A stretch of DNA of 64,000 nt, from NCBI GenBank assembly GCA_947172415.1, contig OX359189.1, forward strand, positions 952,501 through 1,016,500, written 5' to 3'. Origin of the DNA: Chondrosia reniformis (taxonomy: Eukaryota; Porifera; Demospongiae; Chondrillida; Chondrillidae). The translations under genes were made by a program, and so were the position numbers. Each line of letters begins with the position of its first letter. Within the stretch, counting starts at the first letter, position 1. This document shows, in pieces, positions 14,982 through 64,000 of the stretch. The notes below the pieces were generated by a model that saw only the letters and a program-made list of their open reading frames with translations, had not been told where the DNA came from and ran no database searches.

Positions 14982-15110
14982 TTTGTAGGATTCCTTTAGC
15001 TCCGCCCACAGATTACAGAACCTATTACCCACACTAGTACTGTGCATTACAAAACCTATTACACCAATCAAGAGTTATAAAACCTAGATAGTTCTACAGT
15101 TCAATTTTCC

Positions 15111-16642: not shown

Positions 16643-16701
16643 TTCTTTGTAGGACCGTCCAAGTGACCTTCCAAGTGGAGTCCTCCTGATATCCAATTAA
16701 A
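16643..16701. promoter_or_regulatory. 59-bp divergent promoter region, aldo-keto reductase 2 / prefoldin 3
   Basis: Only 59 bp separate the two divergent start codons. A CCAAT string at 16,693-16,697 (plus strand) and a repeated 'caagtg' string are visible. No TATA box is seen. Both 5-prime UTRs must lie here or overlap, so the promoter elements may sit inside the opposite gene. Confidence 0.5.
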
Positions 16702-18230
16702 ATGGCGGAAGAGAGCAACCCCGGGAAACCCGCGGAGAAGAAGCATCTGGGAATTCCTAAAGCAGAATTTCTCGTAAGTGATATAATGCTCACAGTCCTA
16801 ATACATGATTGAAACGAAATTAGAAATATTTTATATCGACAGTGAGCATGCGAGCAAGTCTAGTAGTACATATATAACTAGTCATCCCACTTTAGACTAC
16901 ATATACACTTATCATAATATAGAGAGGGAGTGGGTACACTTTATGGCTTGTTTAAGACATGTGCATAACATAAATATATCTGGAATTTTCATAATAATTT
17001 GGTCATCACCTGAAAGGGATGATGTGGATGTTTATCACTTCTCTCTTGTGTAGTATTGTAAGTTAGTGTTCAATGTCACGTGATACATCTTCTCTTTGTG
17101 TGTAGGACGATGTGGATGCCTTTATGAAGCTCCCTGGAAACACTACTGTAAGGGACACACTTTTGAAGTTGGAAGAACAGTATCAAAAGTACCGCTTCAT
17201 GGAGAGCAACCTTAATGAGAAGAAGAAAAAGTGAGTAACAGAGTATTGGGACCATGTGTTGCCAAGGAAACCAGGAGGTGCTCAATCAGCCATGACCCTA
17301 AAGTATTCTTCTCTATCGAAATGACTGCATGTGTTGGCATAGTGTGTGCTCATATCGATCCTCTCAACATCACTTGTGTTCCCATCAGATTTAGAGTACC
17401 CAATGATATTCTTAATGGCTCCAGGTTAAAAGTTCAAATTCCTGACATCAAGGCAACACTGGAGACCATCAAGCATCTACAATCTCAAAAGGTTTATACA
17501 TACAAAATTCTTTTTCGTATCTTCAGCAGCTGTTTTGTATGCTTTTAGAAAGAGGAGAAGGCTTCAATGGTGAACTTCCTATTATCTGATGGTCTGTATG
17601 CATCTGCCCAAATACCTCCAACCGATAAAGTGTGTCTGTGGCTTGGAGTGAGTCCATCTACACTACAATCTCAACTGACTTAACATTTACAAAAGTTCAA
17701 ATTTGTAGTCTATAATATGAAGCTATATCTTTCCAGTTTCTGATCGTTATCTTCTATGTAGGCGAATGTTATGTTAGAATATACTATCGCTGAGGCTGAA
17801 GAGCTTTTGAGGAAGAATCAATCCTCTGCAACTGAGAATTTAGTTAAAGTGAATGAGGATCTAAACTTCCTTAGAAATCAGCTCACCACAATGGAAGTCA
17901 GTATCTGAATAGTACAGCCAATATAACATAATTACATTAATGGGTTTTAGTTAATGGATTGATCTAAAGGGAGGTCCTGGACTATCTCTTTGGGCAATTT
18001 GGAATGTATTATATCACCTAACCCAACAGATTCTAGAAAAGGCTGGAAGGTTAAAGGGAGATCTCAGAGAAAATGTCTTTGTGGAATAGTAATAATTTGA
18101 TATATTATGTATACCTAAGTTGCCATTGGTTCAGACACACTGGTTCCTTAGCTGCTAAATAGATATGGCACGAGTCCACAATTGGGACGTCAAGAGGAGA
18201 AGTCAGGAAGCAGTCAAATCTCACTCCTAG
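16702..18230 (+). CDS. VBP1: Prefoldin subunit 3 (VBP1)
   Basis: Six exons, 16702-16773, 17106-17230, 17425-17491, 17549-17647, 17762-17900 and 18163-18230, join in matching phases to 189 residues (vertebrate VBP1 is 197). Family signatures appear in order: HLGIPKAEFL, DDVDAFMKLPGN, EEQYQKYRFME, KVQIPDIKATLETIKHL, PPTDKVCLWLGANVMLEY, FLRNQLTTMEVNMARVHNWD and a basic tail. It is an alpha-type prefoldin subunit: two coiled-coil arms around a beta hairpin in the hexamer that hands nascent actin and tubulin to the CCT chaperonin. The exon 5/6 junction uses donor GTATCT after 'gtca'. It completes Asn-Met and avoids a stop that follows immediately if the exon is read through. Confidence 0.95.
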
Positions 18231-20851: not shown

Positions 20852-23800
20852 ATGGAGGAGAGACACTGGTGGTTTGCCACCAAACTTCAGGAAACCTTCA
20901 AATTTGGCGGTTTTGACAGTCCAACTCTTTTGGAAGACTTTCTTTCCGATTCGGACGTGTGCGACCTGTTAAACAGATTCCTAGGGGCCGGGGAGCCAAG
21001 CAAACTATTCTTTTACTGTGATAAAAGTGGCGCTGGAAGCAGCACCAGCAGGCGATTGCACGTGACACCCAAGCTAAACAGAGATGTAGCTAGCCAGCAC
21101 GGGGCGTGTTTCTACGTGCTGCGTAAAGATCCAAACTGGGAGGTAGACCTCGGTGAGATGGAGAAGGAACTAATCTGTGGAGAGATTCGATCCTCTGCTC
21201 TAACTACGTTTACCCTTCTGCTTACCGAGGCGTACAAGCCTCTGATCGAGGCGAATAAGGATTGGGGGAACTGCAGCAGTGAAGATGTCTCGCAGTTCCT
21301 GCAAAATCTTGAAAAGTTTGTTGGTCTGTTATCAGAAATGTCAGCTGTGCAGGAGTCGCGGCGCCGTGTTTTGGAGCTTCCTCGCGTGCCTGCACTATCG
21401 CCTGCATCAATTGGTGGAAGTTCTATTCCTAGCATTATTGTAGACCTTGAGGGCGTGGTCTCGGATTGGATCACAACAATTGATCGCTTTCTCACGGATG
21501 CGCTGGAAGATAGGTAGGTCGGGTTTTCACTAAGAACTGAACGTGCTACAAAATACTCCAAAAATATACTTATTGTGTTATCTGTTTTATTTCTGTACTC
21601 TGTACTGGAGCAATCATGCACTTATCCTGATATACATATTGTAATCACATCAGATAGTATTAAAATTATTATATATCTACTACGTACGTATATACTTACT
21701 CCTTATTGACCTTGTTTAAGCTCTATATGAAAAACTAGTAATGATTTGTAGATATACTTATGAAGTTGTCATACATATATACGTATGTGGAAATTTCCAC
21801 CTCTTCTTATTTCTTGAAATTATTTAGCTCTTGACTTAGGTGATGGTATAATATACTTGAAAATAATGTTCTTTTATGTTCATTTCACAGATCGGTAGAC
21901 CCGACCAGTTTGCCTCTGAATGAGGTAAAGAAGTGGAAGAATCGTCTCATATTGCTGACCTCAATTGTGGAGCAAGTGAAGAGCAAGGATTGTAGCTCTG
22001 TTATTACTGTACTAGTGGCAGCAAAATCCAAAACGCTCAAGAAGTGGAAAATAGTCGATGCCCAGTGAGTAGTGGAGTGAAATGATTACACAAGCATTAA
22101 TGCGTACTACCTGTAGGAGATATAAAAAATATCAATCTTTTTATTTTTCCATTACCGCTGAAATTATTTTCATTCACTCATTTGATAGTGTTTTTTTTTC
22201 ATATTTAATCCCTTTTAATTTTTCAATATTCCACTCTATCTGTTATACGTAGCTTGACCCGGGCTTACATTGATGCAAAGGATAAAGGAAGATTTTTAGA
22301 AGGTCTTCAACTTCACTTTGAGGACCTTGCCATCTGTGGTGATCCCGATCATGTGATCAAAGTTGTACTGCCAGGCATAGCTGCCAACATCATACATCCG
22401 GCTGCCATCTCGTATATGAAGTCTGGATATCTGGGAGTGCTCCTAGCTAAAGTAAGAATGTGCTCTAGTGCTCCTAGCTAAAGTAAGAATGTGCTCTAGT
22501 GCTCCTAGCTAAAGTAAGAATGTGTCCTAGTACTCCTAGCTAAAGTAAGAACGTGCTCTAGTGCTCCTAGCTAAAGTAAGAATGTGCTCTAGTGCTCCTA
22601 GCTAAAGTAAGAACGTGCTCTAGTGCTCCTAGCTAAAGTAAGAATGTGCTCTAGTGCTCCTAGCTAAAGTAAGAACGTGCTCTAGTGCTCCTAGCTAAAG
22701 TAAGAATGTGCTCTAGTGCTCCTAGCTAAAGTAAGAACGTGCTCTAGTGCTCCTAGCTAAAGTAAGAATGTGCTCTAGTGCTCCTAGCTAAAGTAAGAAC
22801 GTGCTCTAGTGCTCCTAGCTAAAGTAAGAATGTGCTCTAGTGCTCCTAGCTAAAGTAAGAACGTGCTCTAGTGCTCCTAGCTAAAGTAAGAATCTGCTCT
22901 AGTACTCCTAGCTAAAGTAAAAACGTGCTCTAGTGCTCCTAGCTAACGTAAGAATGTGCTCTAGTGTGTAATTCTTATTCAATGTGTTCAGGTCACTAAT
23001 TCATTGGTGTTGGTGTGTTTGAGAGCAGTCAAGTCCGTTGTTTCAAAGTCAGATAAGCTGTACTCTAAAGAAGACATCTTTTGGATAATTATGGAGGAAG
23101 CTACAGATGCCGTAGCTAATTCCACCACTCCTTCTGCTGAACATAGACTTTTAAAAGTCTTTGACTCTTGTCAGCAACTGAAAGTCAGTTTTCATGACTT
23201 TCTGGTGAGAATTAAGGAGCAGTTGCTGAACACAGTTAGTCTCCCAGGCGTGGTGACAGCGTTAGGGAGCTCAAGGACCAAGCTTCAAGGCGGCTCCTCC
23301 TCCGTCCTGCTACCTCTTGCTGGTAAGGGGAAGAAGAAGAAGACTTCTGACTTGCTGACTGACAGTGGCACACCAGTACTGGCTCCCATTACTGCTGGAA
23401 TACATCTCTCAGACCTGACCCTAATCACTTCACAGCTGGACCTGTTTTGCACCAGAGTAGACAAAATTAAAGATATGATACTGTCAATGGGCCATTTTTA
23501 CAAATTTTCAAAATCAGCTATTGGACTGCCTTATGCACCTGAGAACTTTTGGTCCTTAAGCACAAGGAATAATACCCTCCCTCCTGCCATCATTCAACAG
23601 GGACCAGTTGTTGAACCACCAGAAACAAAGCAGGCACCAAAACAGGCCTGGTTGCAGCACATTGCCAAGGGAAGCTTAGAGGAGCAGCTGACAGAGGACG
23701 AGGGAATAGATGTAGACACTGTCTCCAGAACATCCACACCGGATGACCCTAAGCTCCCAGTAGCACATTCATCAACTGATAAGCATGGCAGTGAAGGAGT

Positions 23801-29800: not shown

Positions 29801-32800
29801 CAGCCAGTCAGAGAAGGAATGTCATCAACTGCTGCCTAGGCGAGGACATCACAAGAGGAAACCTCCTCGGCAAATTGCAGCAAGAGTTGGAAGAGTGTAA
29901 GAAATCCCTCTCCGTCTACCTAAAGGCCAAAAAGCAGGTACAAACATACGTATGTACACATGTACACATTAGTATACCTACGTATGCATGTACGTACATA
30001 GGATAAGACAATTAAATGTACGTACGTATATATTTGTGTCAACTACATACGTAAGTACATACGTATACAATTAAACTACTGTTATTCTGTGGCTATACTT
30101 GATTGTCCTACCTGCAGGCTTTTCCCAGGTTTAACTTCATATCTGATTCTGTGCTTTTGGGCATTTTAAGTGCTCCAGATTCTGTGGAGAGCATTCTTCC
30201 ATTCCTTCCTGCACTCTTTGGCAGTATTGCCTCTATTGGCGTGACTTACGTACCCAATGTTGACTTTGGGCCACAACCCATCCTCTCTTCGGTGCAATCC
30301 CTCGAAGGAGAACAACTGGAGTTCAGTACAGCTGTTCAACTGAAAGGAAATGTTGAAAAATGGCTCAACCTTTTGTTGGAAGAGGTGAAATCAACATTAA
30401 AGAAGAAAGCAACTGTTGCCATTGCTAAATATCCAGACACTCCATTGGAGGACTTTATACAACAGGTTACGTGTACTACAAATTGACAACTATCTATTTA
30501 CGTACAGCTAAACGTTTGTGTAAATTTATTCCCTTCACCCCTTCTGACTTTAGAACACCTGCCAAGCTGCTTGTGTGGCTGTCCATCAGCATTGGACTGA
30601 GGAATGTGAGAAGGCTTTGTCTGTCTGTCGCTATGACAGGAGGGCTATCCCTGGCAACCGGAACAAGTTTAACAACAGTGTTGTGACCAAACTTGTCAAT
30701 TTGCTGGGGAGAGGGAAGTGGAAACAGAGCAACATTGGACTAACAGTCCCAGAGAAGAAGAAACTAGAATCATTAACATTAGTAGGTCCACATATCTTCT
30801 CCATTCCAAGTTCCCCTTCCAATCCCAATTCCAATTCCAAATTTATGTACAAATTGGATGTATCCATTTCTTTTCCATGTTCTTATCCCCATGAAGCTTG
30901 CCATAGGCTTGAGGGATATTTGTGATGACCTGGTTCAGAGAAAGCTGAGAGATGTAAATGACTTTGAATGGCAGAGATTTCCACGGATTTACAGTTATTA
31001 CAACTTAACAGTCACAGAGCACTCCTTTGCAGCAGATCCTAAAAGTCAAGCCAGTAAGATTGTAGATGACCTTTGTGTGCCATTCCCCCCTATACATACA
31101 TACGTAGCTCTGTCTGTATATAGACTGTGTGCAATACTATCCTACTTATATAGTACATACATGCATGTATATACGTATGGTCCATGTAGCACCTCATCAA
31201 CCTGGGGAGCTCCTTCTGTCCACACGCTGTTTGGAGGTGGATCTGCCCTATGCCTACGAATACACAGGATGTCAGAGCTATCCGGTATTCACCTCAAGAT
31301 CCTTCAGCTGCATTGTAGCCCTCACCCAGGCTCTGTCAAAGTTTAGTAGCTGCGAGCTGGTGGGACCGGTGGGCAGCGGTAAGGTGGGCATGGTGGAAGG
31401 GCTGGGCCTGCTGTGTGGGAGGAATGTGACAGTGTTGCAGTGCACACGGCTGACTGCGGCGTCCTCCCTGACTGCCCTCCTCTCTGGATGCGCACAGGTG
31501 AGGATATGCTACAATTTATTGGAGCATTTCAATCCAGCATTTCCCGTTTAAATATTCTCATGACAAGCTTGCTAATTGTTTTACGAGGAATTGGCCAAGA
31601 AATGCATGAGAACTATAGTGCATCCATCATAGACTGAATCCTTGCATACATCCTCCCTCCCTATCTATGCAGTCCTCAGTGTGGTGCTGTTTTGCTGGTG
31701 CTACCAACTTATCCTCCTCCGTGCTGGCGGTGCTTGGGCACCTCCTATACACCATCAATGGAGCACTCAAGATGAAGTTGGCTGGCTGCCTGCTTCCCAA
31801 TGGACAACAGGTACATTTTGGATGGGTATTCCTATTCCTAGTATTTGGATGCACATTTGAACATGCATACGTACATATAGTGGCATGTCATATAATGATC
31901 CAATACTTCCAGATTCCTGTTCGCTCTGGATTTGGTGTCTTTGTGACAAGAAGAGATGGTGACAAGAGCTCAGTTCTGCCAAGCTATATGCAGGAGCTGT
32001 TTCGTTCGTTCTCCCTCACCCTGCCCCCCTTAAGCATGGTGTTTCGTGTACATGCTGCCCTCTGTGGATACAAAAACCCAAAACAGTTGGCAGACAGGCT
32101 TGTAATGTTTTATACCTTGGTTAGAGAACAGCTGTGAGTTGAACTGTGAAAATGTATTTACATGACTTGCAGTATATATGATAAATAATTATTATGTGTA
32201 ATATTTTGCGTTTCAATTTTGATTTTTGTAACTATAGATCTGAAACGGCTCTCAGTCTTCAAAGTCTGTTGGATGCAATAAGAAACTCAGCCATTGCTGC
32301 AAACACCGTTTCCACTAAGCATCTCTCAACCTTTCCCAGTGACACAACACTGCTCTCCCCAATGCATGCGGCCAGCATAAACAAGCTGAATGGGGATGCC
32401 CCTGTCATTACCTCCTCCAAAGTAGACCACAAAGATATAGTAAAGGGATTGGTTGAGTTCATCCTACCAAGATACCCAGATGTTGTAAGATTTGCATTTC
32501 AGACAATCTATATAATATATCATGCACATTGTCTAAGTCTCTTAACAAGTCTGCTCCTTCCGTATTGGGTTAATGAGGCAAAGCTGCATGTTGGTATTTT
32601 ACAAGATATCCCTATGTACATGTGTGTGGTGCAGTTTCAGTGGCTAAAGTATATATATATATACTTTGTACATACGTACATATACTGTCCACATGTACGT
32701 ACGTATATCAGAATTGTGTGTGTTCCCTATATTCTTAGGAGAAACCAGTTTTCTTGTCCATTCTAAGAGATACTTTTGTTGGAGTAATATCTCCCCAACA

Positions 32801-35800
32801 ACTTGATAACCTGCTTCAAGAAGTGAAGTTTCCCCCTCTCTCTCTTTATGAGCGGTACAGAGATAATAATTTAGGATTTCAAAGCTTTTCTCACCTCTCA
32901 CAACCTGCTTCAGAGTCTTGTCCAACTGATATTACCATTGGGACAGAGCTCTCACTCTTCTTGGCCAAAGAATGTCAATCAATGAAGCTGATACTTCACC
33001 AACCTTGGCTGGACAAGGCAAAACAAATCAGCTCAATTCTGAAGGAAAAGGACTGTAAGAATATGTACTGTACTGTATGTACTGTACATATGTGCGTGTA
33101 CGTATGTTTGTGTAGGACTTTGGTCTCCCAACTAAGATCTTGGTTGGATAATTATCAACCAGGGATTATTTCATGCATACTTAGTTTTGCCTATTTTCAA
33201 CCTCCTGTTGATTTACTCTCTTACAATTCTGTAGCTGTTGTAGTTGCTGGAGTAGCTGGTTCAGGAAAGACTACATGCATTGATGCACTTATTGCCGCAG
33301 AGAATGCTATGCAGAGGAGCAGAGAGGGTGAGGAGGCAGTACCAGTAAAATTACACAGAATTTTCCCCCAGGTTTATGAGAATGTAACAGCACTGTATGG
33401 TGAATTGAAGAGTAATGGAGACTGGTCAGACGGAGTGTTCACAGCATTGCTAAGGAAAGCCCTAAGAGTGAGTAATGCATGTGATACGGATATACTCGTT
33501 AAATATTTAAATATTATTTAATTTATTTATTAAATTTAAATATTATTAAATATGAACATACGTACGTACGTATGTATGCATATATACGTATTTATCAACA
33601 TAGTTACAGCATTATTTAGCTATTGTGATATGGGCATTCTGTGCGCCAGTGTTCCTTCAGTGATAAAGTTTCCATCAATGACATCACACTCCCTTCTTCT
33701 AGGCGCAGCAGTCTGCCAACTGGTTCTGCTTTGACGGACCCTTGTCTCCCTTGTGGGTGGATCAGTTGTCAAGTTTGTTAGTGAAGAGCAAGACCTTTCA
33801 GCATCCAAATGGAGACCTCCTGTCTGCAAATGGGAAAAATATGAAGTTCTTCTTTGAAACAGGCGACCTGAAGGATGCAAGTCCTGTTGCTCTAACATAC
33901 TGTGTATGTCTAGTAATTTAACAAGTGGAATATTACACAATACATAAGTATATATGTACATATAAGGGTTAATGAGTATATGATTATGTAAGTATTATAG
34001 GCAAATGTAGTATATAGCCTTACAACCTATTACTATATACGTATTATTGTGTTACTTTTATGTATTCCTATTGGTGCCCACTTGTCCTTACATTTTCCAG
34101 GGGTTGGTGTATTTTGACATGACTGTACTGAACTGGAGGGTGCTATTTGAATCCTGGTTGAGTACCAGAAGACCTCAGGAAGTTCATGTGAGGATGGGAC
34201 AACTTAACAATTAACATGACCTCTTTCTCTCTAGCTACATATACGTACATACATACATACATACATACATACGTACGTACGTATGTGTAGTTGAATATTT
34301 AACAGATTAACAATTAATATTATATGTGGTTTGTGTGAGCGTGTCTCAAACTGTGTTACTATAGCAATATACTGTATACTGCTGTAGTGTCTGACTAAAT
34401 GGATGGACAGTGTCATTGAGCCAGTATGCAGGTTTACTGCACAGGCAATGGGATCTGACTATTGTGAGACTGGACAGATCTCTACAACCTTGAGCTACCT
34501 AAGGGCCCTTCTTGATGTAAGCTCCTTGACACTCAATTGCTTCCCATCTACCTGTATCTGCTCTTGACACACAATTGCTTCCCATCTACCTGTATCTGCT
34601 CTTGACACACAATTGCTTCCCATCTACCTGTATCTGCTCTTGATACCCAATTGCTGCCCCTCTACCTGTATCTGCTCTTGATACCCAATTGCTGCCCCTC
34701 TACCTGTATCTGCTCTTGATACCCAATTGCTGCCCCTCTACATATCTGTGTCTACTGTTTAGATATATGCCGAGACTGCAGAAGCTTTCTCTGAGAGCCA
34801 TGTGGAGAAACTGTTCCTGTTCTCCGTGATATGGGGATTTGGTGGTTCCCTGTCAGATACAGACCAGACTGAGTTTAGTACTCTGTTGAGTCACCTCACA
34901 AACTGTCTTCCAGATGACGACACAGCTGACTCTGTGTTCCACTACTACGTCGACGAGTCAGGAGAATGGGATGTATGGGGGGCATGGTACGTACTTGTGT
35001 ATGGGGGGCGTGGTACATACATGTGTATGGGGGTGTGGTACGTACTTGTGTATGGGGGGCATGGTACATACATGTGTATGGGGGGCATGGTACATACTTA
35101 TGTATGGGGGCATGGTACGTACTTGTGTATGGGGGGCATGGTACGTACATGTGTATGGAGGTGTGGTGTGTATGTATTTATTGTACGTATATGTGAATGG
35201 AAATTTAGAGAACTAACTTACGTATATACTACTTCTCTTTGTTTATATTATTGTTACCCAAGACTCCCAAGAAATTAGTATTGAATTCTAAATATTCTTC
35301 ATTTAAATGACTCTTATATTTCCTATATTTAGCATTCCAAAAAATGACTACTCTGCAAAACTTGATCCAATTAATGATCTCTTCATTGAAACAGCACAAT
35401 CAGTGAGAATAACTACTTGTTGTTTGTTTCTATGGCGTAGATTACTTAGAAAGTTGTCAGTATACGTACATACGTACATACGTACATACATACATACATA
35501 CATGTACATATACAATGACTGTATGCATGCTTACTCCATGTTTATTTGTATTTACGTACGTAGGTATGTGTAAAGACACTATTGGAGCTGGCTCACAACT
35601 CAAGGCAACATATTCTTCTTGTGGGCCCTAAGGGAATTGGTAAAACAGCAGTTGTTAACAACTTTCTCTCTCAAAGAGGTATTTCAGTTGCCATGGCCAC
35701 CTGTGGACCGACAGTTATATACTGTACCTACCTATATATTTTGTGTGATTGTGTATAACTTGTCTGCTGTAGTATGTCCAAGTGTTATGTAAGTGTGTAT

Positions 35801-38800
35801 TTGTTGTTTTAAGGGATTGCTTTTTCAAAGACTGAGTGTGTAAGGAAGCTAACATTTAATGGACACACTAATACTCATCTCATGCATAGTTTCATCCAAA
35901 TACACTTCCACCGAAGACAAGGTTAGTTACTACTATATACTTTTCTCCATGTAATGAAATAGCCAAATGAATTTTGTTATTTAATTGTAGGCATACGTAT
36001 GTATGTACATATATGTATTACTTTCAAAACAGTTAATTCATGAATGTATTTACATGTCCATGTACTGTATTTGGGTTTAAAGTTGTTGAATTTCATCATG
36101 AATCGTTTTTACAGAAAATGTTCTACCTGTCCCTCTGTTTTCTTCTTTCTTCTTCTAGTTCTTTTTCCAACTGCTTTATCTTCCACTTGGCAATACCATA
36201 CTTCTTTATGCTAGTTTCCACTCTCTCTCTCTGCCACACCTGTTGTTCAATCTGTCTTTGGGCCTTTCTAATCTCATCTGGTAGGCTGCACCATTCCATG
36301 TAACGGTCCAAGGCCACGTCTAGCTCCTTCTTCCAGATTTTGATTGACAATTTATCTGAAGATTTTAAGTATGGTTCAATCAGCTTTTCAAAATGTCTTT
36401 GACACAGTTGCATTTCCAAGCAACGAAAACTGTCTTCCCATTTGTCAGAAGGCTTTTCAACTAAATTATATAATAGGTCTGACAGCATTATCCCATCCAT
36501 TCTTCCGCCAGTTTTAGTCCTCTTTGGCTTTGTGACTTTCAGATGGTGCACAAGCTCAATTATTGCAAGACGATAGCTCTCCTCATTCTTAAGAACCTTG
36601 CTCTCTTGGAAACCTGTATTTTCTATGTCTGGGATTTGACTGGAATGAATTACAGGAAAGCACCTTTTTATTATCTTCTTTTTATGATCCACCATCGGAA
36701 GATTGTGCCCACCAGAGTCTTGGGTGAGAAAGGTGTAGCCATATTCGTTGCTGTCTGAGGTCGGTCTCAATTGTCCCCTGACAACCACATGGAGGTCGCC
36801 AAGGTTTCTGTAGTCTCCAAAGGTAAGGTTTGCCCGGTGACACACTCTGTAAAGGAAATCAATGTGCTGGCTCGTCAGTAGGTCCTTCACCAGGAGGAGC
36901 GTCTCACTGGACATCAAGCCAGTAATGATGCTCAAAGTTGTCGTCTTGATGTCATCTCCTAGGCCTGTTCCCTCAGCATCAATGAATATAGTTGAACCCG
37001 CAGTTATCCCATTGCTGAGAATGTGAATCCAGAGGCCTCTAGTGCTGGATTCCATTTTGTTACTAGTTAGGAAGGTGTCAGTGGTGTCTTCAAAAACCCC
37101 ATTCCACTCATCAATGATTTTGTTCAATGTCGTACTTTTACCAGATTTGACAAGTCCAATGGCTGAAATCACTCTTATAGGTGGCTGGACCTGCGTCAAG
37201 TGCTCCACAGCCTCAGGATTAATGACAATCTTATCACCATGGAACATTAGCAACTGGACAGTTAGAGTATCAGCCTCTTCATTAGTGTTGAACTTCAGGC
37301 CATCTACCAAATGAGCAAGTATTGGGAGTAAGCTAATCCAGATTACAAAACTCACTCTATGTCCCATATTTCATTCAACAAAATGTAATAGATCAGAATG
37401 GAAATACTTTTGATAGAACGCCATTTTACATACGTAGGTGATGTAATGTCTATTTAAACTGTTTATGGTAGTCATGGCTACCAGTAATATAAACCTACGA
37501 TGCAAAGATAAAAATGTATGCACTATAATATGGCTGATATTCCTTTTATATAATCACTCAATGAATCTGATGAATATATGAATAATTGCTCTGGCCCAAA
37601 GGACAAAATGGCTGTCTTAATTCTATTGATATTTGGTGTATTGTGGAGTGCTCCAGGTTTTTGTCAAGAGAATGAAGCCCTTCCTCTGATAGAATATTTA
37701 GAAGAAAAGAGACTCAGTGTTAATGAAGAAGCTCTAAGCATTCTAAAGGATTTGTCTTCCCCTCTTAGAATCATAGCTGCCATTGGAGATGCAAGAGTAG
37801 GGAAGAGTACAACCTTGAATAAATTGATACACACTTGGAAGGGAAGATTTACTGCCACAAAACAAATGTTTCGAACTTCAGATGGTTACAAGAGCTGTAC
37901 AAAAGGTATATGGATGTATATTATTGAAAATGAAGATAGTTCAAACTCAGCTAGTACCATTTTGTTGGATGTGGAAGGAATAGGAATTGGTGATGATGAA
38001 CAGATTGAAAAGCTTAGCATCATAACTGGGTTGCTGGCCTCTGAAATGATGCTCTTTTCTAGCAATATACTAAGCAACTATGGTTTAGATTTTATCTACC
38101 GAATGTGTCGTTCAAAAGAAATAAACCTTAGAGACAAAAGTTTTAATGCTTTTGGCACTCTTCATGGTGTTATTATTGGCCACCTGAGCCCAGGATCGGA
38201 GGAAGATTATGTTAAAAGTTTCCTTACTGAGGAAACTGGAGATCAAAAGATGGATACAAAAAGAGCACTCATCAGGCAGCATTTCCACCCTGAATACATA
38301 AAAGGAACACAGATTCCCTCAATTGAATCTGACCTCTTTAACGAACCAAATAAACTGGATAGGAATGCAGCCTACAAGAAGGCCATACAAGAACTGGCAG
38401 CACATTTAGAGAAATCACCTTTGAAACATACTCTGGCTGGGTCTCAGATAGATGGGCAAATGATTGCAGATCTTGTTAAAACCATTGTCAGTCAGTCTAC
38501 TGAGAAGTGGTATCCAAATTACAATGCCTATGAAGAGGAACTATGTGATAGAGAGTCCTCAAAACTGTTAGAAACAATTAAAAATAACAGTAGCCTTACT
38601 TCAACTGAATTGAAAAGCATCCAGTCTTCTACCTTGAGTCTTTTTAGAAAGAAATGCAATTTAGACAAGGAGCATAGACATTTTGAAGACAGATGGCGTG
38701 ATATACTTGAAACTAAGGAAAAAGAAGAAGAAAAATATTTGGCAGAGCAAAATAGAATAAAAGAAGAAAATAAGAACTTAACTGATGAATTAGAGGTTGA

Positions 38801-41800
38801 GAGGGAGTCCAAAAAGCATTTAAAGAATCAATTAAATAGAAGTAGTACATCAGAAGAGCATCACCATAGTAACAAAATAACCCTTTGGTTGTTTTTGATA
38901 TCTTTGCTCTTGATCCTTATTCTTTGTGTTTGCACGGCTGGAGTTCTTATAAGATTACCTCAGGCAGTTTTGATTGGAGTCTTTGAATTGCTTGTGAATG
39001 TTGTTGTGTCTCTTTATAGTATATGTGTAAATCCTTGTTGTGCCATTAGTGCTATCGCTGTGTCATTTTTTTGTTGGTGTTATTTTTCTGATCCATGGTA
39101 TGAACCATTTGTTTTCATGTATAACTTTTACAAGAATATATCAGATAACTAACTATAGTTTATGTTCAAGATTTTTTTTAAGAATAAAGAATCTTGTTGT
39201 GATTAATTTAAACATTTTAAGCATGTACAATGTATGAAGGATTGCATGGTCTTTACACAATGTACTGGTTTTGATAAGGTTAATGTACATGTACTGGATC
39301 ATGGACAGTTCACATACGTACCTATACTACTGTAGTAACTATTTCTAGCATAAAATAACTGTATATGTATACATATGTACATAGGTCAGACTTATGGCCC
39401 CTTTCAAGGTAAACTCATGAATTGCTTCCTTGATGATATTCATCTCCCAACACAAGACAAGAATAACAACATGTCTGAGGTATATACATACATGTACATG
39501 TACGTATGTGAACTGAAGTATTTGAAAAGAAAATGTTTGCCTCAACTTCAGTACTTACGTCAGCTTGTTGATGTGAAGGGTCTGTACAACCTGTCACGTG
39601 ACCAAGAATGGAGCAATATTGAAGACATTGTCATCTTCTCAAATGGAAGTGATTCTTCAAAGGAAATGACATTGAGAAATTCCAGACTGAGGGTAAAACC
39701 CTACACAATTACAATGAATGACAATTATATAGGTACATGTGGCTATTAGTGTAGTTTATATTTTCTGTTGATATTGTAGCGTCACTTTGCTGTCATCAGA
39801 TTTCCGACAGTTACTCAAGAAGACACTGCCTGCATCATCCAAAGCCTTGCTGAGGTAAGCTTTGCATAGCTTATCATGCAAAAACATAACTGTTTAAATA
39901 ATATCATCAATCAATCCTAGCAAGTGTGTAATACCTTTGATTGTACTTATAGAATAATATGAATGTATGTACGTATGTACAAGTCAGTTTATAGGATCAC
40001 AATACAATACAATACAACACAATACATACAATACAATACAATACAACACAATACAATATATTATATGGATACATAGACTACAGTACAATACATATGGATA
40101 CATAGACCACAGTACAATACATATGGATATATAGACCACAGTACAATACAATCATATCACGTACATACATAGGGATATCTGCACTGTAAGGAGGCAAACC
40201 AGTCAGTGTCAAAGGAGATGGTCTCCATATTAGCAAGAGTTACTACTGAACTATATTCTGAAGTAGCTGCCTTACTGAGAAGTTCCACTCTCCCAGGAAG
40301 ACATCACTACATGTTCTCCATCACCCAGGTGGCACAGCTCTTCAAAGTAAGTCCCTTCTTACGAGAAGAACCACAGCAATCACGACAAACTACAGTAGAC
40401 CTGACTTTACACTTAATATAGCAGTTGTGAACAACACAAAGTTAGGGCAATTTAGCTTCATTGGTTGACAGTGTACCCACTATTATCAACACTAATAGAT
40501 TGATTATTTGAAGTTTGATCCTATTTCTTCATCTGATAGGGTATCCTTCAGTGTCTGTCCTCAGCAACTGAAGTTCCTCCAGTGCTCCATTTCTTCTGGA
40601 GACACGAAGCTACTAGAGTATTCAGCGGTGGCATTAGTAGAGAAAGGGACTACCTCTGGTTGGCCAAGAGGATCTGCCATCACACTGTCACCATCAGAAC
40701 TGAAGGGTCTCTTTGGAGCGAGACAAATCCTGACATGCTGGCTGTTACTGGCATACCACTCAATGTCAAAACTGTCAAAGGAGCAGTGGAGACAGAACTT
40801 AAGCCAGTTCCAAAAGTAATCTACACACTATCACTGTTACCTAAAAACAGATTTGTTTCATGTGACCTTATTTCTTGAGTTACCAGACTTCTTGTTTGTT
40901 TCATAGAATGCTCAATTTGTTTGTGTTAATGAAAATCCCCCTGTCTCTCTCCTTTCTAGCTATTACCATGAAGTCTGTTATCTTAGCTATTTTAACCTTT
41001 TTGTAGTACACAGTTTCCATGGTAACTAACTGGAATGACCTCCGACCTTCACTGAGTCACTATGTCAGTCAGTATCAGAATGAGTTTGGTGGTCTCGATG
41101 TGCCTCTTTCTAATGTGTTCATCACTGATATCATCCGAATCCATAGAGCTATTCTGTCCTCAAGGTAAGTATGCAGAGGCCAGACCCTTCAAGGGAAGGG
41201 GGCTTCAAGATGGAGGAACATGTCATCTATTCTCTTCTGAATTTATTGTGTGTTGGACATTAGTGTGAATTGTACTTTTACTGTTTGATAATAGGTGTAA
41301 TGCTTCTAAATGTAGAGTACGTATGTATATATTTCTGTTTCTCTCCAATTTCAAGTAATTACTTCATCTTTCTGCTCTTCTCTATGATACCAGTACTTCT
41401 ATCATCATCAGTGAGTCAATTGATAGAACAACCTCTCTTGTGCACCTTGCCCTCTACATTGGAGAATACAAGCTAATGAACATTGACTTTTCTGAAGGAG
41501 GTGGTATACAAGATGTCATGCAGACACTCTTAAAGCAGGCTGGCCTCGACCGGAAGCAAATAGCTGCCATTTTCACAGAGGAGGATTTGAAGGATGATAG
41601 AGTTTTACAATTTCTCAGTACCTACATTTCAAGTGGAGAACTACCACTTGTCTTCAGTAATGATGAAGAACATGGAATATACCAGGTATATTTGCTGTTT
41701 AACATGCTTCCTGTAAATAATGGATCTTTCCTGAAATATTTACAGTATGAGTGAATGTACAGTTTATTACTTATTTTTTTAGGCTATGGCTCCAGCTATC

Positions 41801-53256: not shown

Positions 53257-54310
53257 ATATAACCGGCCTAGTTGAAATATCGATCATAGACATTAATATC
53301 GTACAAGCGATAAATATCGGACCTCTCACTATTTCTAGTTTTCTGTATCATGAAAAGTCGCTCTCCTCCCTCCACCAAGACACATACAGGCTTTTATCCA
53401 TTTGCCACAGTTTTGAGATGTATTGGAAATACTGCGTATGTGTGTAAAATTGCTTGGAACGATTCACTGGTCTGGAATTAAAGTGGAATAAATTGACGAT
53501 TTCTCGAAAATAATTGGGATCAGAAATGTCGTTCTCCTCGGCCCATCAAGACACTTAAAGGATTTTATTCGATTTTCCCAGTTTTCAGGTGAACCACTAA
53601 TACTGCCTATGTCTTTAAACTTGCTTGAAACAATTCACTGATCTGGAAATAACGAGAAATATATTAAAAAAGGTCCCAACCACAACCGTTTTCTTTGGAC
53701 AAAACTTCGTATAAATAGAAGCGAAAAACCTTATATAGTAGGCCTACCTGGACACATCTCTATGGTGGTTGCGGTTCCCATAGAGGTTGGTAGCGCTTAG
53801 ACTCTGAAGCTGTCTCCTAATCGGTTGGTGCCATAGAGACGTGCTCACCAATAATCCGGATTTCGGGGGGGTTCCACGTAATGTGGGATTGGCATCTGAT
53901 ATCTTAGGATTCATATGAGTCGGCCATATCGAGAAGAACTGGTTCTTCTCACGCAAGTGACACCCAAAGCTCAACTCGGCAGAGCGTTACCACCGATCCC
54001 GGCCTATGAGCGTCGTGGATGGTAGCGTTCGGTATGGTCCAACATTTTTTCTTTGGAGTTTCGTTGGCTGTCGATTGACGAAATTTCACTTTAACGAGAT
54101 CCATATAAAATATATGGATAGATAGTACTTCAATAACAATCAAGTACTACACAGTGCATATCCCTATGTATAAAAAATTGGAAAGTATTCTAGATTTTCA
54201 GATATAGTATGGATTTTTATCTTTATTATAATATTATACCTTCTAACGGTCGGCCATATATAGCATTACGCAATTTTCTCTAACAACAACAGTACATTAG
54301 CTGTACTTCT
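53257..54310. repeat. 1.05-kb non-satellite segment, copy 1
   Basis: Interrupts the satellite and is unrelated to the monomer. It recurs at 56,081-57,133 with an offset of 2,824 bp (2,823 after about 54,166). It includes a hairpin 'ctctatgg' ... 'ccatagag' near 53,758-53,785. Short open frames exist on both strands but match nothing I know. Confidence 0.85.
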
Positions 54311-56080
54311 GTAACTCTATCAAATGGCGAGATATGAAGCTAAATCTTTGTGTCAGCATTCACAGACATCCTATAGAGAATGTCCAATGGGTTTTTGAAA
54401 TTTTGATGAAACTTAAAATTTGCCCTATCTCTCACAATACATTAACTTCGTATATCAGAATTTAATGCACATTGAGGGCTGTCACTCTATCAAATGGAGA
54501 GATATATATGAAGCTAAATCTTTGTAGGCATTCACAGACACCTATAAAACATGTCCAATGGGTTTTTAGAAATTTTGATGAAACTTAAAATTTGCCCTAT
54601 CTCTCACAATACATTAACTGTGTATACCAGAATTTAATATACATTGAAGGCTGTCACTCAATCAAATGGAGAGATATGAAGCTAAATCTTTGTGTCAGCA
54701 TTCACAGACATCTATAGAACATCTCCAATGGGTTTTTGAAATTTTGATGAAACTTAAAATTTGCCCTATCTCTCACAATACTTTAACTTTGTATACCACA
54801 ATTTAATGTTCGTTGAGGGCTGTCACGCCATCAAATGAAGAGATATGAAGCTAAACCTTTGTGTAAGCATTCACAGACATCTATAGAGCATGTCCAATGG
54901 GTTTTCAGAAATTTTGATGAAACTTAAAATTTGCCCTATCTCTCACAATATATTAACTGTGTATACCAGAATTTAATGTACACTGAAGGCTGTCACTCAA
55001 TCAAATGGAGAGATATGAAGCTAAATCTTTGTGTCAGCATTCACAGACATCTATAGAACATCTCCAATGGGTTTTTGAAATTTTGATGAAACTTAAAATT
55101 TGTCCTATCTCTCACAATACATTAACTGTGTATACCAGAATTTAATGTACACTGAAGGCTGTCACTCAATCAAATGGAGAGATATGAAGCTAAATCTTTG
55201 TGTCAGCATTCACAGACATCTATAGAACTTCTCCAATGGGTTTTTGAAATTTTGATGAAACTTAAAATTTGCCCTATCTCTCACAATACATTAACTGTGT
55301 ATACCAGAATTTAATGTACATTGAGGGCTGTCACTCTATCAAATTGAGAGATATGAAGCTACATTTTTGTGTCAGCATTCACAGACATCTATAGAACATC
55401 TCCAATGGGTTTTTGAAATTTTGATGAAACTTAAAATTTGCCCTATCTCTCACAATACATTAACTTTGTATACCAGAATTTAATGTATATTGAAGGCTGT
55501 CACTCAATCAAATGGAGAGATATGAAGCTAAATATTTGTGTAGGCATTCACAGACATCTATACAACATGTCCAATGGGTTTTTGAAATTTTGATGAAACT
55601 TAAAATTTGCCCTATCTCTCACAATACTTTAACTTTGTATATCAGAATTTAATGTACATTGAAGGCTGTCACTCAATCAATTGCAAATGGAGAGATATGA
55701 AGCTAAATCTTTGTGTCAGCATTCACAGACATCTATAGAACATCTCCAATGGGTTTTTGAAATTTTGATGAAACTTAAAATTTGCCCTATCTCTCACAAT
55801 ACATTAACTGTGTATACCAGAATTTAATGTACATTGAGGGCTGTCACTCTATCAAATTGAGAGATATGAAGCTACATTTTTGTGTCAGCATTCACAGACA
55901 TCTATAGAACATGTCCAATGGGTTTTTGAAATCTTGATGAAACTTAAAATTTGCCCTATCTCTCACAATACATTAATTGTGTATACCAGAATATAATGTA
56001 CATTGAGGGCTGTTACTCCATCAAATGTCAAATGGAGAGATATGAAGCTACATCTTTGTGTCAGCATTCACAGACATCTA
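54311..56080. repeat. Satellite array, middle stretch
   Basis: About ten head-to-tail monomers of about 169 bp with point differences, between the two copies of the 1.05-kb segment. Confidence 0.92.
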
Positions 56081-57133
56081 ATATAACCGGCCTAGTTGAA
56101 ATATCGATCATAGACATTAATATCGTACAAGCGATAAATATCGGACCTCTCACTATTTCTAGTTTTCTGTATCATGAAAAGTCGCTCTCCTCCCTCCACC
56201 AAGACACATACAGGCTTTTATCCATTTGCCACAGTTTTGAGATGTATTGGAAATACTGCGTATGTGTGTAAAATTGCTTGGAACGATTCACTGGTCTGGA
56301 ATTAAAGTGGAATAAATTGACGATTTCTCGAAAATAATTGGGATCAGAAATGTCGTTCTCCTCGGCCCATCAAGACACTTAAAGGATTTTATTCGATTTT
56401 CCCAGTTTTCAGGTGAACCACTAATACTGCCTATGTCTTTAAACTTGCTTGAAACAATTCACTGATCTGGAAATAACGAGAAATATATTAAAAAAGGTCC
56501 CAACCACAACCGTTTTCTTTGGACAAAACTTCGTATAAATAGAAGCGAAAAACCTTATATAGTAGGCCTACCTGGACACATCTCTATGGTGGTTGCGGTT
56601 CCCATAGAGGTTGGTAGCGCTTAGACTCTGAAGCTGTCTCCTAATCGGTTGGTGCCATAGAGACGTGCTCACCAATAATCCGGATTTCGGGGGGGTTCCA
56701 CGTAATGTGGGATTGGCATCTGATATCTTAGGATTCATATGAGTCGGCCATATCGAGAAGAACTGGTTCTTCTCACGCAAGTGACACCCAAAGCTCAACT
56801 CGGCAGAGCGTTACCACCGATCCCGGCCTATGAGCGTCGTGGATGGTAGCGTTCGGTATGGTCCAACATTTTTTCTTTGGAGTTTCGTTGGCTGTCGATT
56901 GACGAAATTTCACTTTAACGAGATCCATATAAAATATATGGATAGATAGTACTTCAATAACAATCAAGTACTACACAGTGCATATCCTATGTATAAAAAA
57001 TTGGAAAGTATTCTAGATTTTCAGATATAGTATGGATTTTTATCTTTATTATAATATTATACCTTCTAACGGTCGGCCATATATAGCATTACGCAATTTT
57101 CTCTAACAACAACAGTACATTAGCTGTACTTCT
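56081..57133. repeat. 1.05-kb non-satellite segment, copy 2
   Basis: Near-identical to 53,257-54,310; the only indel I see is one C near 56,987. Confidence 0.85.
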
Positions 57134-60100
57134 GTAACTCTATCAAATGGCGAGATATGAAGCTAAATCTTTGTGTCAGCATTCACAGACATCCTATAGA
57201 GAATGTCCAATGGGTTTTTGAAATTTTGATGAAACTTAAAATTTGCCCTATCTCTCACAATACATTACCTTCGTATATCAGAATTTAATGCACATTGAGG
57301 GCTGTCACTCTATCAAATGGAGAGATATATATGAAGCTAAATCTTTGTAGGCATTCACAGACATCTATAGAACATGTCCAATGGGTTTTTAGAAATTTTG
57401 ATGAAACTTAAAATTTGCCCTATCTCTCACCATACATTAACTGTGTATACCAGAATTTAATATACATTGAAGGCTGTCACTCAATCAAATGGAGAGATAT
57501 GAAGCTAAATCTTTGTGTCAGCATTCACAGACATCTATAGAATATCTCCAATGGGTTTTTGAAATTTTGATGAAACTTAAAATTTGCCCTATCTCTCACA
57601 ATACATTAACTTTGTATACCAGAATTTAATGTTCGTTGAGGGCTGTCACGCCATCAAATGAAGAGATATGAAGCTAAACCTTTGTGTAAGCATTCACAGA
57701 CATCTATAGAGCATGTCCAATGGGTTTTTAGAAATTTTGATGAAACTTAAAATTTGCCCTATCTCTCACAATATATTAACTGTGTATACCAGAATTTAAT
57801 GTACATTGAAGGCTGTCACTCAATCAAATGGAGAGATATGAAGCTAAATCTTTGTGTCAGCATTCACAGACATCTATAGAACATCTCCAATGGGTTTTTG
57901 AAATTTTGATGAAACTTAAAATTTGTCCTATCTCTCACAATACATTAACTGTGTATACCAGAATTTAATGTACATTGAAGGCTGTCACTCAATCAAATGG
58001 AGAGATATGAAGCTAAATCTTTGTGTCAGCATTCACAGACATCTATAGAACATCTCCAATGGGTTTTTGAAATTTTGATGAAACTTAAAATTTGCCCTAT
58101 CTCTCACAATACTTTAACTGTGTATACCAGAATTTAATGTACATTGGGGGCTGTCACTCTATCAAATTGAGAGATATGAAGCTACATTTTTGTGTCAGCA
58201 TTCACAGACATCTATAGAACATCTCCAATGGGTTTTTGAAATTTTGAGGAAACTTAAAATTTGCCCTATCTCTCACAATACATTAACTTTGTATACCAGA
58301 ATTTAATGTATATTGAAGGCTGTCACTCAATCAAATGGAGAGATATGAAGCTAAATCTTTGTGTAGGCATTCACAGACATCTATAGAACATCTCCAATGG
58401 GTTTTTGAAATTTTGATGAAACTTAAAATTTGCCCTATCTCTCACAATACTTTAACTTTGTATATCAGAATTTAATGTACATTGAAGGCTGTCACTCAAT
58501 CAAATGGAGAGATATGAAGCTAAATATTTGTGTAGGCATTCACAGACATCTATACAACATGTCCAATGGGTTTTTGAAATTTTGATGAAACTTAAAATTT
58601 GCCCTATCTCTCACAATACTTTAACTGTGTATACCAGAATTTAATGTACATTGAGGGCTGTCACTCTATCAAATTGAGATATATGAAGCTACATTTTTGT
58701 GTCAGCATTCACAGACATCTATAGAACATCTCCAATGGGTTTTTGAAATTTTGATGAAACTTAAAATTTGCCCTATCTCTCACAATACATTAACTTTGTA
58801 TACCAGAATTTAATGTATATTGAAGGCTGTCACTCAATCAAATGGAGAGATATGAAGCTAAATATTTGTGTAGGCATTCACAGACATCTATACAACATGT
58901 CCAATGGGTTTTTGAAATTTTGATGAAACTTAAAATTTGCACTATCTCTCAAAATACTTTAACTTTGTATATCAGAATTTAATGTACATTGAAGGCTGTC
59001 ACTCAATCAAATGGAGAGATTTGAAGCTAAATCTTTGTGTCAGCATTCACAGACATCTATAGAACATCTCCAATGGGTTTTTGAAATTTTGATGAAACTT
59101 AAAATTTGTCCTATCTCTCACAATACATTAACTGTGTATACCAGAATTTAATGTACATTGAGGGCTGTCACTCAATCAAATGGAGAGATTTGAAGCTAAA
59201 TCTTTGTGTCAGCATTCACAGACATCTATAGAACATCTCCAATGGGTTTTTGAAATTTTGATGAAACTTAAAATTTGTCCTATCTCTCACAATACATTAA
59301 CTGTGTATACCAGAATTTAATGTACATTGAAGGCTGTCACTCAATCAAATGGAGAGATATGAAGCTAAATCTTTGTGTCAGCATTCACAGACATCTATAG
59401 AACATCTCCAATGGGTTTTTGAAATTTTGATGAAACTTAAAATTTGCCCTATCTCTCACAATACATTAACTTTGTATACCAGAATTTAATGTATATTGAA
59501 GGCTGTCACTCAATCAAATGGAGAGATATGAAGCTAAATCTTTGTGTCAGCATTCACAGACATCTATAGAACATGTCCAATGGGTTTTTAGAAATTTTGA
59601 TGAAACTTAAAATTTGCCCTATCTCTCACAATACATTAACTGTGTATACCAGAATTTAATGTACATCAAATGAAGAGATATGAAGCTAAATCTTTGTGTA
59701 GGCATTCACAGACATCTATAGAACATCTCCAATGGGTTTTTGAAATTTTGATGAAACTTAAAATTTGCCCTATCTCTCACAATACATTAACTTCGTATAT
59801 CAGAATTTAATGCACATTGAGGGGTGTCACTCTATCAAATGGAGAGATATGAAGCTAAATATTTGTGTAGGCATTCACAGACATCTATACAACATGTCCA
59901 ATGGGTTTTTGAAATTTGGATGAAACTTAAAATTTGCCCTATCTCTCACAATACTTTAACTTTGTATACCAGAATTTAATGTACATTGAAGGCTGTCACT
60001 CAATCAAATGGAGAGATATGAAGCTAAATATTTGTGTAGGCATTCACAGACATCTATACAACATGTCCAATGGGTTTTTGAAATTTTGATGAAACTTAAA

Positions 60101-63100
60101 ATTTGCCCTATCTCTCACAATACATTAACTTTGTATACCAGAATTTAATGTACATTGAAGGCTGTCACTCAATCAAATGGAGAGATTTGAAGCTAAATCT
60201 TTGTGTCAGCATTCACAGACATCTATAGAACATCTCCAATGGGTTTTTGAAATTTTGATGAAACTTAAAATTTGTCCTATCTCTCACAATACATTAACTG
60301 TGTATACCAGAATTTAATGTACATTGAGGGCTGTCACTCAATCAAATGGAGAGATTTGAAGCTAAATCTTTGTGTCAGCATTCACAGACATCTATAGAAC
60401 ATCTCCAATGGGTTTTTGAAATTTTGATGAAACTTAAAATTTGTCCTATCTCTCACAATACATTAACTGTGTATACCAGAATTTAATGTACATTGAAGGC
60501 TGTCACTCAATCAAATGGAGAGATATGAAGCTAAATCTTTGTGTCAGCATTCACAGACATCTATAGAACATCTCCAATGGGTTTTTGAAATTTTGATGAA
60601 ACTTAAAATTTGCCCTATCTCTCACAATACATTAACTTTGTATACCAGAATTTAATGTATATTGAAGGCTGTCACTCAATCAAATGGAGAGATATGAAGC
60701 TAAATCTTTGTGTCAGCATTCACAGACATCTATAGAACATGTCCAATGGGTTTTTAGAAATTTTGATGAAACTTAAAATTTGCCCTATCTCTCACAATAC
60801 ATTAACTGTGTATACCAGAATTTAATGTACATCAAATGAAGAGATATGAAGCTAAATCTTTGTGTAGGCATTCACAGACATCTATAGAACATCTCCAATG
60901 GGTTTTTGAAATTTTGATGAAACTTAAAATTTGCCCTATCTCTCACAATACATTAACTTCGTATATCAGAATTTAATGCACATTGAGGGGTGTCACTCTA
61001 TCAAATGGAGAGATATGAAGCTAAATATTTGTGTAGGCATTCACAGACATCTATACAACATGTCCAATGGGTTTTTGAAATTTGGATGAAACTTAAAATT
61101 TGCCCTATCTCTCACAATACTTTAACTTTGTATACCAGAATTTAATGTACATTGAAGGCTGTCACTCAATCAAATGGAGAGATATGAAGCTAAATATTTG
61201 TGTAGGCATTCACAGACATCTATACAACATGTCCAATGGGTTTTTGAAATTTTGATGAAACTTAAAATTTGTCCTATCTCTCACAATACATTAACTGTGT
61301 ATACCAGAATTTAATGTACATTGAGGGCTGTCACTCAATCAAATGGAGAGATTTGAAGCTAAATCTTTGTGTCAGCATTCACAGACATCTATAGAACATC
61401 TCCAATGGGTTTTTGAAATTTTGATGAAACTTAAAATTTGTCCTATCTCTCACAATACATTAACTGTGTATACCAGAATTTAATGTACATTGAAGGCTGT
61501 CACTCAATCAAATGGAGAGATATGAAGCTAAATCTTTGTGTCAGCATTCACAGACATCTATAGAACATCTCCAATGGGTTTTTGAAATTTTGATGAAACT
61601 TAAAATTTGCCCTATCTCTCACAATACATTAACTTTGTATACCAGAATTTAATGTATATTGAAGGCTGTCACTCAATCAAATGGAGAGATATGAAGCTAA
61701 ATCTTTGTGTCAGCATTCACAGACATCTATAGAACATGTCCAATGGGTTTTTAGAAATTTTGATGAAACTTAAAATTTGCCCTATCTCTCACAATACATT
61801 AACTGTGTATACCAGAATTTAATGTACATCAAATGAAGAGATATGAAGCTAAATCTTTGTGTAGGCATTCACAGACATCTATAGAACATCTCCAATGGGT
61901 TTTTGAAATTTTGATGAAACTTAAAATTTGCCCTATCTCTCACAATACATTAACTTCGTATATCAGAATTTAATGCACATTGAGGGGTGTCACTCTATCA
62001 AATGGAGAGATATGAAGCTAAATATTTGTGTAGGCATTCACAGACATCTATACAACATGTCCAATGGGTTTTTGAAATTTGGATGAAACTTAAAATTTGC
62101 CCTATCTCTCACAATACTTTAACTTTGTATACCAGAATTTAATGTACATTGAAGGCTGTCACTCAATCAAATGGAGAGATATGAAGCTAAATATTTGTGT
62201 AGGCATTCACAGACATCTATACAACATGTCCAATGGGTTTTTGAAATTTTGATGAAACTTAAAATTTGCCCTATCTCTCACAATACATTAACTTTGTATA
62301 CCAGAATTTAATGTACATTGAAGGCTGTCACTCAATCAAATGGAGAGATATGAAGCTAAATCTTTGTGTCAGCATTCACAGACATCTATAGACCATCTCC
62401 AATGGGTTTTTGAAATTTTGATGAAACTTAAAATTTGCCCTATCTCTCACAATACATTAACTTTGTATACCAGAATTTAATGTATATTGAAGGCTGTCAC
62501 TCAATCAAATGGAGAGATATGAAGCTAAATCTTTGTGTCAGCATTCACAGACATCTATAGAACATGTCCAATGGGTTTTTAGAAATTTTGATGAAACTTA
62601 AAATTTGCCCTATCTCTCACAATACATTAACTGTGTATACCAGAATTTAATGTACATCAAATGAAGAGATATGAAGCTAAATCTTTGTGTAGGCATTCAC
62701 AGACATCTATAGAACATCTCCAATGGGTTTTTGAAATTTTGATGAAACTTAAAATTTGCCCTATCTCTCACAATACATTAACTTCGTATATCAGAATTTA
62801 ATGCACATTGAGGGGTGTCACTCTATCAAATGGAGAGATATGAAGCTAAATATTTGTGTAGGCATTCACAGACATCTATACAACATGTCCAATGGGTTTT
62901 TGAAATTTGGATGAAACTTAAAATTTGCCCTATCTCTCACAATACTTTAACTTTGTATACCAGAATTTAATGTACATTGAAGGCTGTCACTCAATCAAAT
63001 GGAGAGATATGAAGCTAAATATTTGTGTAGGCATTCACAGACATCTATACAACATGTCCAATGGGTTTTTGAAATTTTGATGAAACTTAAAATTTGCCCT

Positions 63101-64000
63101 ATCTCTCACAATACATTAACTTTGTATACCAGAATTTAATGTACATTGAAGGCTGTCACTCAATCAAATGGAGAGATATGAAGCTAAATATTTGTGTAGG
63201 CATTTACAGACATCTATACTAAATGTCCAATGGGTTTTTGAAATTTTGATGAAACTTAAAATTTGCCCAATCTCTCACAATACATTAACTTCGTATATCA
63301 GAATTTAATGCACATTGAGGGGTGTCACTCTATCAAATGGAGAGATATGAAGCTAAATCTTTGTGTAGGCATTCACAGACATCTATAGAACATGTCCAAT
63401 GGGTTTTTAGAAATTTTGATGAAACTTAAAATTTGCCCTATCTCTCACAATACATTAACTGTGTATACCAGAATTTAATGTACATCAAATGGAGAGATAT
63501 GAAGCTAAATCTTTGCGTAGGCATTCACAGACATCTATAGAACATGTCAAATGGGTTTTTGAAATTTTGATGAAACTTAAAATTTGCCCTATCTCTCACC
63601 ATACATTAACTTTGTATACCAGAATTTAATGTTCATTGAGGGCTGTCGCGCCATCAAATGAAGAGATATGAAGCTAAACCTTTGTATAAACATTCACAGA
63701 CATCTATAGAACATGTCCAATGGGTTTTTGAAATTTTGATGAAACTTAAAATTTGCCCTATCTCTCACAATACTTTAACTTTGTATACCAGAATTTAATG
63801 TTCGTTGAGGGCTGTCGCGCCATCAAATGAAGAGATATGAAGCTAAACCTTTGTGTAAGCATTCACAGACATCTATAGAGCATGTCCAATGGGTTTTTAG
63901 AAATTTTGATGAAACTTAAAATTTGCCCTATTTCTCACAATATATTAACTGTGTATACCAGAATTTAATGTACATTGAAGGCTGTCACTCAATCAAATGG
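57134..64000. repeat. Satellite array with higher-order structure, running off the window
   Basis: About 40 monomers of 169 bp. One variant monomer has an extra base ('gtttttagaaa') and an 18-bp loss after 'aatttaatgtaca'. It recurs at 59,661, 60,827, 61,824, 62,652 and 63,480, spacings of 1,166, 997, 828 and 828 bp, that is 7, 6, 5 and 5 monomers minus 17. No gene is present. Confidence 0.92.

Follow-up and report, generated by a model that had tools for sequence, protein, structure and literature searches.

The genome of the sponge Chondrosia reniformis very probably carries two intronless, divergently transcribed GTPase genes of the GB1 type (GBP-like), paralogous to each other, wholly within one intron of a gene that resembles a dynein heavy chain. 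We analysed a window of 64,000 nucleotides (C1:952,501-1,016,500, in a genome of 117,379,552 bases and 15 contigs; positions below are those of the window). The host intron, placed by a splice model with the GTPase genes masked and by the two halves of an AAA_7 domain, occupies 35922..39384 on the plus strand and measures 3,463 nt. It carries a minus-strand gene for 414 amino acids (36123..37367) and a plus-strand gene for 514 amino acids (37608..39152; an alternative in-frame ATG lies at 37,578). Their start codons are separated by 240 bp (37368..37607), presumed to be a shared divergent promoter. As read from the sequence, the entire coding region of each GTPase falls within this single intron, leaving 201 nt (35,922-36,122) and 232 nt (39,153-39,384) outside the two genes and their gap. 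The arrangement looks real, and it is an ordinary case of intron-nested genes.

The boundaries of the intron are those proposed in an earlier note on this DNA, with both splice sites at the bases it gave (GACAAG|gttagt after 35,921 and atag|GTCAGAC before 39,385), and the exons joined across 35,921/39,385 give a single frame, as it had also claimed. The donor is strong, ranking 38th of the 2,018 plus-strand GT sites between 20 and 52 kb under a generic consensus matrix. Our home-made coding-plus-splice model, whose generic splice matrix was typed from recall, joins exactly 35,921 to 39,385 when both GTPase open reading frames (ORFs) are masked; masking took these ORFs out as competitors, and the splice test was not blind to them. 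Upstream, the AAA3 Walker A motif (GPKGIGKT) is carried by an exon at 35564..35678, placed by the splice model and AAA_7, with its start less certain than its end. The exon immediately 5' of the intron (35814..35921) has its donor set by the model and its start set by hand (model: 35,890). Downstream, the Walker B exon (NCFLDDIHLP, 39385..39479) has its acceptor set by the model and its end by hand (model: 39,408), and is followed by a hand-set exon at 39552..39692 (model start: 39,564), which begins YLRQLVDVKGLYN and encodes more of AAA3. All four exons are on the plus strand.

The domain itself also connects the exons across the intron. Against AAA_7 (PF12775) the spliced domain scores 101.2 bits, compared with 34.5 and 52.9 bits for its halves (sum 87.4), and the halves align to adjacent stretches of the profile, positions 21-90 upstream and 93-176 downstream. 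AAA3 is therefore split by the intron and whole once spliced, and the dynein-type host with an intron inside AAA3 stands as originally described. A spliced piece of 160 amino acids, the last seven of which (RHFAVIR) were read by eye, matches dynein chains in the Protein Data Bank (PDB) across the junction, with a best E of 2e-15. It is very unlikely that the flanking dynein exons belong to separate genes, or that the plus-strand GTPase is an exon of the host, as AAA3 would then break between Walker A and Walker B, and the plus GTPase comes with a start, a hydrophobic N-terminus, a stop and an AATAAA of its own. The unmasked version of our model does string this GTPase into the host, but it cannot represent nesting, and it illustrates how nested genes are absorbed into the surrounding gene when the gene model is simple.

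Both GTPase ORFs are open and uninterrupted, and the longest ORF between 36,001 and 39,300 runs to 532 codons, whereas none of 500 mononucleotide shuffles exceeded 164. Each is a single frame that exceeds the 21.1-bit cut-off of the GBP family PF02263 (minus 29.2, plus 44.0), in agreement with the two divergent intronless GB1-type genes described previously. In the PDB, the plus protein and a profile of the pair each have GBPs as their top 13 matches, while in NCBIfam the plus protein returned four weak rows far below the cut-offs and the minus protein none. The proteins are 34-36% identical, and a genome search gave each of them no strong match but the other, with one weaker match besides for the minus protein (E 0.79); such genome match counts are lower bounds, as only the best candidates were scored. 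For the DNA of the intron, no second match turned up in the genome. Over 351 aligned codons the identity at the three codon positions is 0.516/0.607/0.311, where 0.280/0.277/0.253 is expected by chance. With positions 1 and 2 well above chance and position 3 near saturation, we infer an old duplication in which both proteins have been kept by purifying selection.

An AATAAA noted earlier in the host orientation is indeed present (39183..39188, plus strand), but as it lies 31 nt after the plus stop codon it is best read as the likely poly(A) signal of the plus GTPase gene itself. An ATTAAA at 35980..35985 on the minus strand may serve the minus gene; both signals were identified by pattern match only. 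In the 240-bp gap, a sigma-70 promoter scan found two sites where shuffled sequence gives 2.4, a type of motif that is not applicable to animals.

Several observations weigh against the nested arrangement. Host splicing, and the expression and promoter use of the pair, are predictions from sequence. The acceptor is only moderate, ranking 299th of 2,184 AG sites over the same 20-52 kb and with the same matrix, and the model exons that flank the intron (35,890-35,921 and 39,385-39,408) do not coincide with those set by hand (35,814-35,921 and 39,385-39,479), with an identical splice pair in both. The concatenated host model contains one internal stop, and when the hand-set exons are extended with the downstream exons of the first model the frame is lost. 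A host piece of 408 amino acids with a stalk-like coiled coil gave no dynein family match (seven weak rows, best E 0.15). As for the GTPases, their homology to GBPs reaches significance only from G1 to past G3, in the first part of the G domain (about 140 residues), and G+C content at third codon positions differs strongly for neighbouring paralogues (0.315 in plus, 0.476 in minus). The predicted structure of the plus protein, built from a two-row alignment, has a mean pLDDT of 48.7, almost every residue from 1 to 299 falling below 50, and lends no support to the fold.

A misjoin or contamination might have set foreign or distant genes between the dynein exons, the only sign of it found being the lower G+C content of the plus gene (0.360 compared with 0.432-0.472 in three host exons). 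This is extremely improbable, as the flanks form the halves of one domain in a single frame. The published assembly of this species, odChoReni1.1, is reported to combine HiFi and Hi-C data with a primary quality value (QV) of 69.8 (PMC12181767), which makes a misjoin unlikely if the assembly used here is that one. No relative was found among 50 candidate stretches in viral contigs, a scan limited to two peptide patterns. A corresponding scan of prokaryote genomes with peptide patterns gave 66 stretches and a single tblastn match, over query residues 56-126 only. This match (L012), an ORF of 245 amino acids, looks by eye like a bacterial P-loop GTPase next to a second one, and was dropped as a relative.

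The earlier note had further proposed that the pair arose by a retroposed insertion that later duplicated. In this special case of the nested arrangement, with which it is compatible, the spliced mRNA of an intron-bearing GBP gene would have entered the intron by reverse transcription, and the resulting copy would later have been duplicated in inverted orientation. The seven PF02263 matches in the genome amount by place to four genes, namely the pair and two multi-exon genes on contigs C13 and C14. The C13 gene (L010, C13:641500-649500, minus strand) is GBP-like, retains the G4 aspartate and matches GBP1 over the whole G domain, and the C14 gene reads as an atlastin by eye. That the pair is intronless while these genes have many exons favours retroposition, as does the hydrophobic stretch with which the C13 protein likewise begins. 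Nevertheless, the plus protein shares only 23.6% of 144 residues with the C13 protein and the minus protein 21.2% of 151, and no close intron-bearing parent of the pair was found in the genome. Nor did the flanks hold a poly(A) tract (runs of at most 4 A or 8 T) or a convincing target-site duplication, the longest exact direct repeat across them being 10 nt, a length reached in 91 of 500 dinucleotide-block shuffles.

The remnants expected of a retrogene are thus lacking on all three counts (poly(A), target-site duplication and intron-bearing parent), although old age could explain each of them. With third codon positions near saturation, traces of retroposition are not expected to last, and the flanks are weak evidence either way. 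We consider retroposition a tenable origin, somewhat less probable than its alternatives taken together. The later duplication is plausible, since each gene is the only strong match of the other found in the genome; it is the retroposed start of which no trace was found.

On the reading that both genes are nested in the dynein-like intron, an intronless GBP-like gene would have settled in a short host intron and been copied there in inverted orientation long ago. The two genes would be transcribed independently of the host, starting from the 240-bp divergent promoter between them and stopping at poly(A) signals of their own, and the host pre-mRNA would read through them and remove both with the intron. 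Their products may be large GTPases that associate with membranes of the endomembrane system, as has been suggested for Gnbp and GBPL2, the plus protein being membrane-inserted and the minus protein a partner that lacks the C-terminal anchor.

The sequence motifs of the two proteins are in part typical of their family. G1 (GxxxxGKS), the G2 threonine and G3 (DxEG) are intact in both, with invariant columns at G60, G65, K66, S67, T98, D121 and G124. At G4, where GBP1 has RD, the nested proteins read by eye as VVRG and VIIG, a glycine standing in place of the aspartate. The significant alignments of the nested proteins all stop short of this region, and a three-way MAFFT alignment did not place the G4 of the C13 protein there. 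The C13 protein itself carries WVVQDF, aligned to WTLRDF of GBP1. That both GTPases appear to have lost the G4 aspartate is the one odd feature of the pair. It could point to pseudo-GTPases that have lost the nucleotide-specificity motif, or to decay of one or both genes, the more so as the C13 protein has kept its aspartate. We regard this as unlikely given the long open frames, the conserved codon positions 1 and 2, and the intact G1, G2 and G3. A loss at G4 would nonetheless have a precedent, as the plant pseudo-GTPase AtGBPL1 is on record with divergent G2-G4 boxes (PMC12489281).

Judged by Kyte-Doolittle windows alone, both nested proteins begin with a hydrophobic stretch, which in the plus protein resembles a signal peptide. 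In the plus protein the G domain is followed by a predicted long helix and a hydrophobic C-terminal region (420-494), which is absent from the minus protein. An N-terminal signal peptide, a G domain and a C-terminal membrane segment are described for both Gnbp of Dictyostelium (PMC8565484) and the plant GBPL2 clade (PMC12489281). The predicted layout of the plus protein, with its GBP-type G domain and C-terminal membrane segment or segments, is by this analogy already known. Compared by such descriptions of layout, the nested pair differs in its strong divergence and its apparent lack of the G4 aspartate, and the minus protein in having no C-terminal membrane part. Among the best PDB matches, which cover the first part of the G domain with GxxxxGKS and DxEG, are the interferon-induced GBP1, 2 and 5, whereas only about 140 residues of the nested proteins match significantly and they carry an N-terminal hydrophobic stretch. 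An immune role for the pair is a guess from the family name. It is distinctly improbable, if conceivable, that the pair forms a two-part large-GTPase device without guanine specificity, with one membrane-inserted and one unanchored member, both with the same loss at G4, co-expressed from the 240-bp promoter and gated by transcription of a host that is not a motor.

The host is a many-exon plus-strand gene that ends at 52,879 in our home-made model. With the GTPases masked, the model spans 18,720-52,879 with 68 introns and an uncertain 5' end. The nesting intron is the longest of these (3,463 nt), the next measuring 540 nt and the median 194 nt. A 31-bp tandem repeat (22436-22966, 17.1 copies) fills most of another modelled host intron at 22,452-22,991. 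Pieces of the host product match the dynein families DHC_N2 (PF08393, 136.3 bits), AAA_6 (PF12774, 97.5 bits) and Dynein_C (PF18199, 30.9 bits) in addition to AAA_7; the profile scan covered DHC_N2, AAA1, AAA3, the C-terminal domain and the stalk-like piece. A further 35 dynein AAA3 matches were listed in the genome.

AAA1 is the main site of hydrolysis in dyneins, and its Walker A and Walker B residues are catalytic. In the host AAA1 (31330-31810, plus strand) the Walker B reads CFAGATN where two dynein chains align CFDEFNR, so that AG replaces DE, and the Walker A reads GSGKV, in which valine follows the lysine, a pattern in keeping with a non-motor dynein. The catalytic residues of an active dynein motor are therefore not present as a set, and the host, though dynein-like, probably lacks the main hydrolysis site. 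The previous description of the intron as lying in a motor core is generous for a host whose AAA1 is without the Walker B acidic residues. With dynein domains but without these Walker B acids in AAA1, the host presumably resembles the orphan 'ghost' dynein heavy chain DNHD1. If it is an orthologue of DNHD1, a dynein-like gene of this kind in a sponge would bear on the age of the orphan DNHD1-type dyneins. One paper presents DNHD1 as a dynein-related orphan gene (PMC8754002).

The nesting of genes in introns had been called uncommon, a view that published counts do not bear out. One survey reports 2,432 nested genes in Aphrocallistes vastus (12.4% of genes), 3,358 in Amphimedon queenslandica and 5,032 in Sycon, with 83 in Oopsacas and none in Ephydatia; its authors attribute the low counts of some genomes to probable effects of annotation settings and give a usual range of 5-10% of genes (PMC10282587). 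Elsewhere the proportions are given as about 6% in Drosophila, 2.1% in C. elegans and 0.5% in human (PMC3786989). Against thousands of nested genes in some sponges, the present case is within the ordinary range. More than one nested gene per host is not rare either, since in a human set of 104 nested genes, 90% of them putatively non-coding and picked for signs of interference, 23 of 74 hosts are reported to hold two or three. Like other intron-nested genes of animals, which are often single-exon (the nested sponge gene glassin being a reported example), the GTPases lie wholly inside the intron of another gene; they differ in being two paralogues placed head to head in one intron. In the literature on nested genes we found no count of head-to-head paralogous pairs in one intron, and titles and the openings of abstracts on dynein nested genes in sponges or on GBP evolution yielded no treatment of this locus. 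The locus offers a clean, checkable instance of double nesting within a single intron in a non-bilaterian animal.

Other features of the window lie on either side of the dynein-like gene. Upstream of it, exons at 16702-17896 (plus strand) read by eye like prefoldin subunit 3. Two adjoining copies of an apparent aldo/keto reductase gene are found at 13994-16696 on the minus strand, where one ORF matches Pfam PF00248. Further upstream, 1638-4845 and 9677-12884 (minus strand) hold closely similar copies, separated by about 8 kb, of a large P-loop ORF with tetratricopeptide repeats (TPR; 889 amino acids) and an adjoining ORF of 143 amino acids. In the copy at 1638-4845 the larger ORF matches TPR families and the 143-residue ORF has no family match. 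The layout is suggestive of NLR/STAND proteins. Beyond the 3' end of the dynein-like gene, a satellite array with a 169-bp unit occupies 54309-56080 (10.4 copies) and 57132-64000 (41.1 copies), reaching the end of the window.

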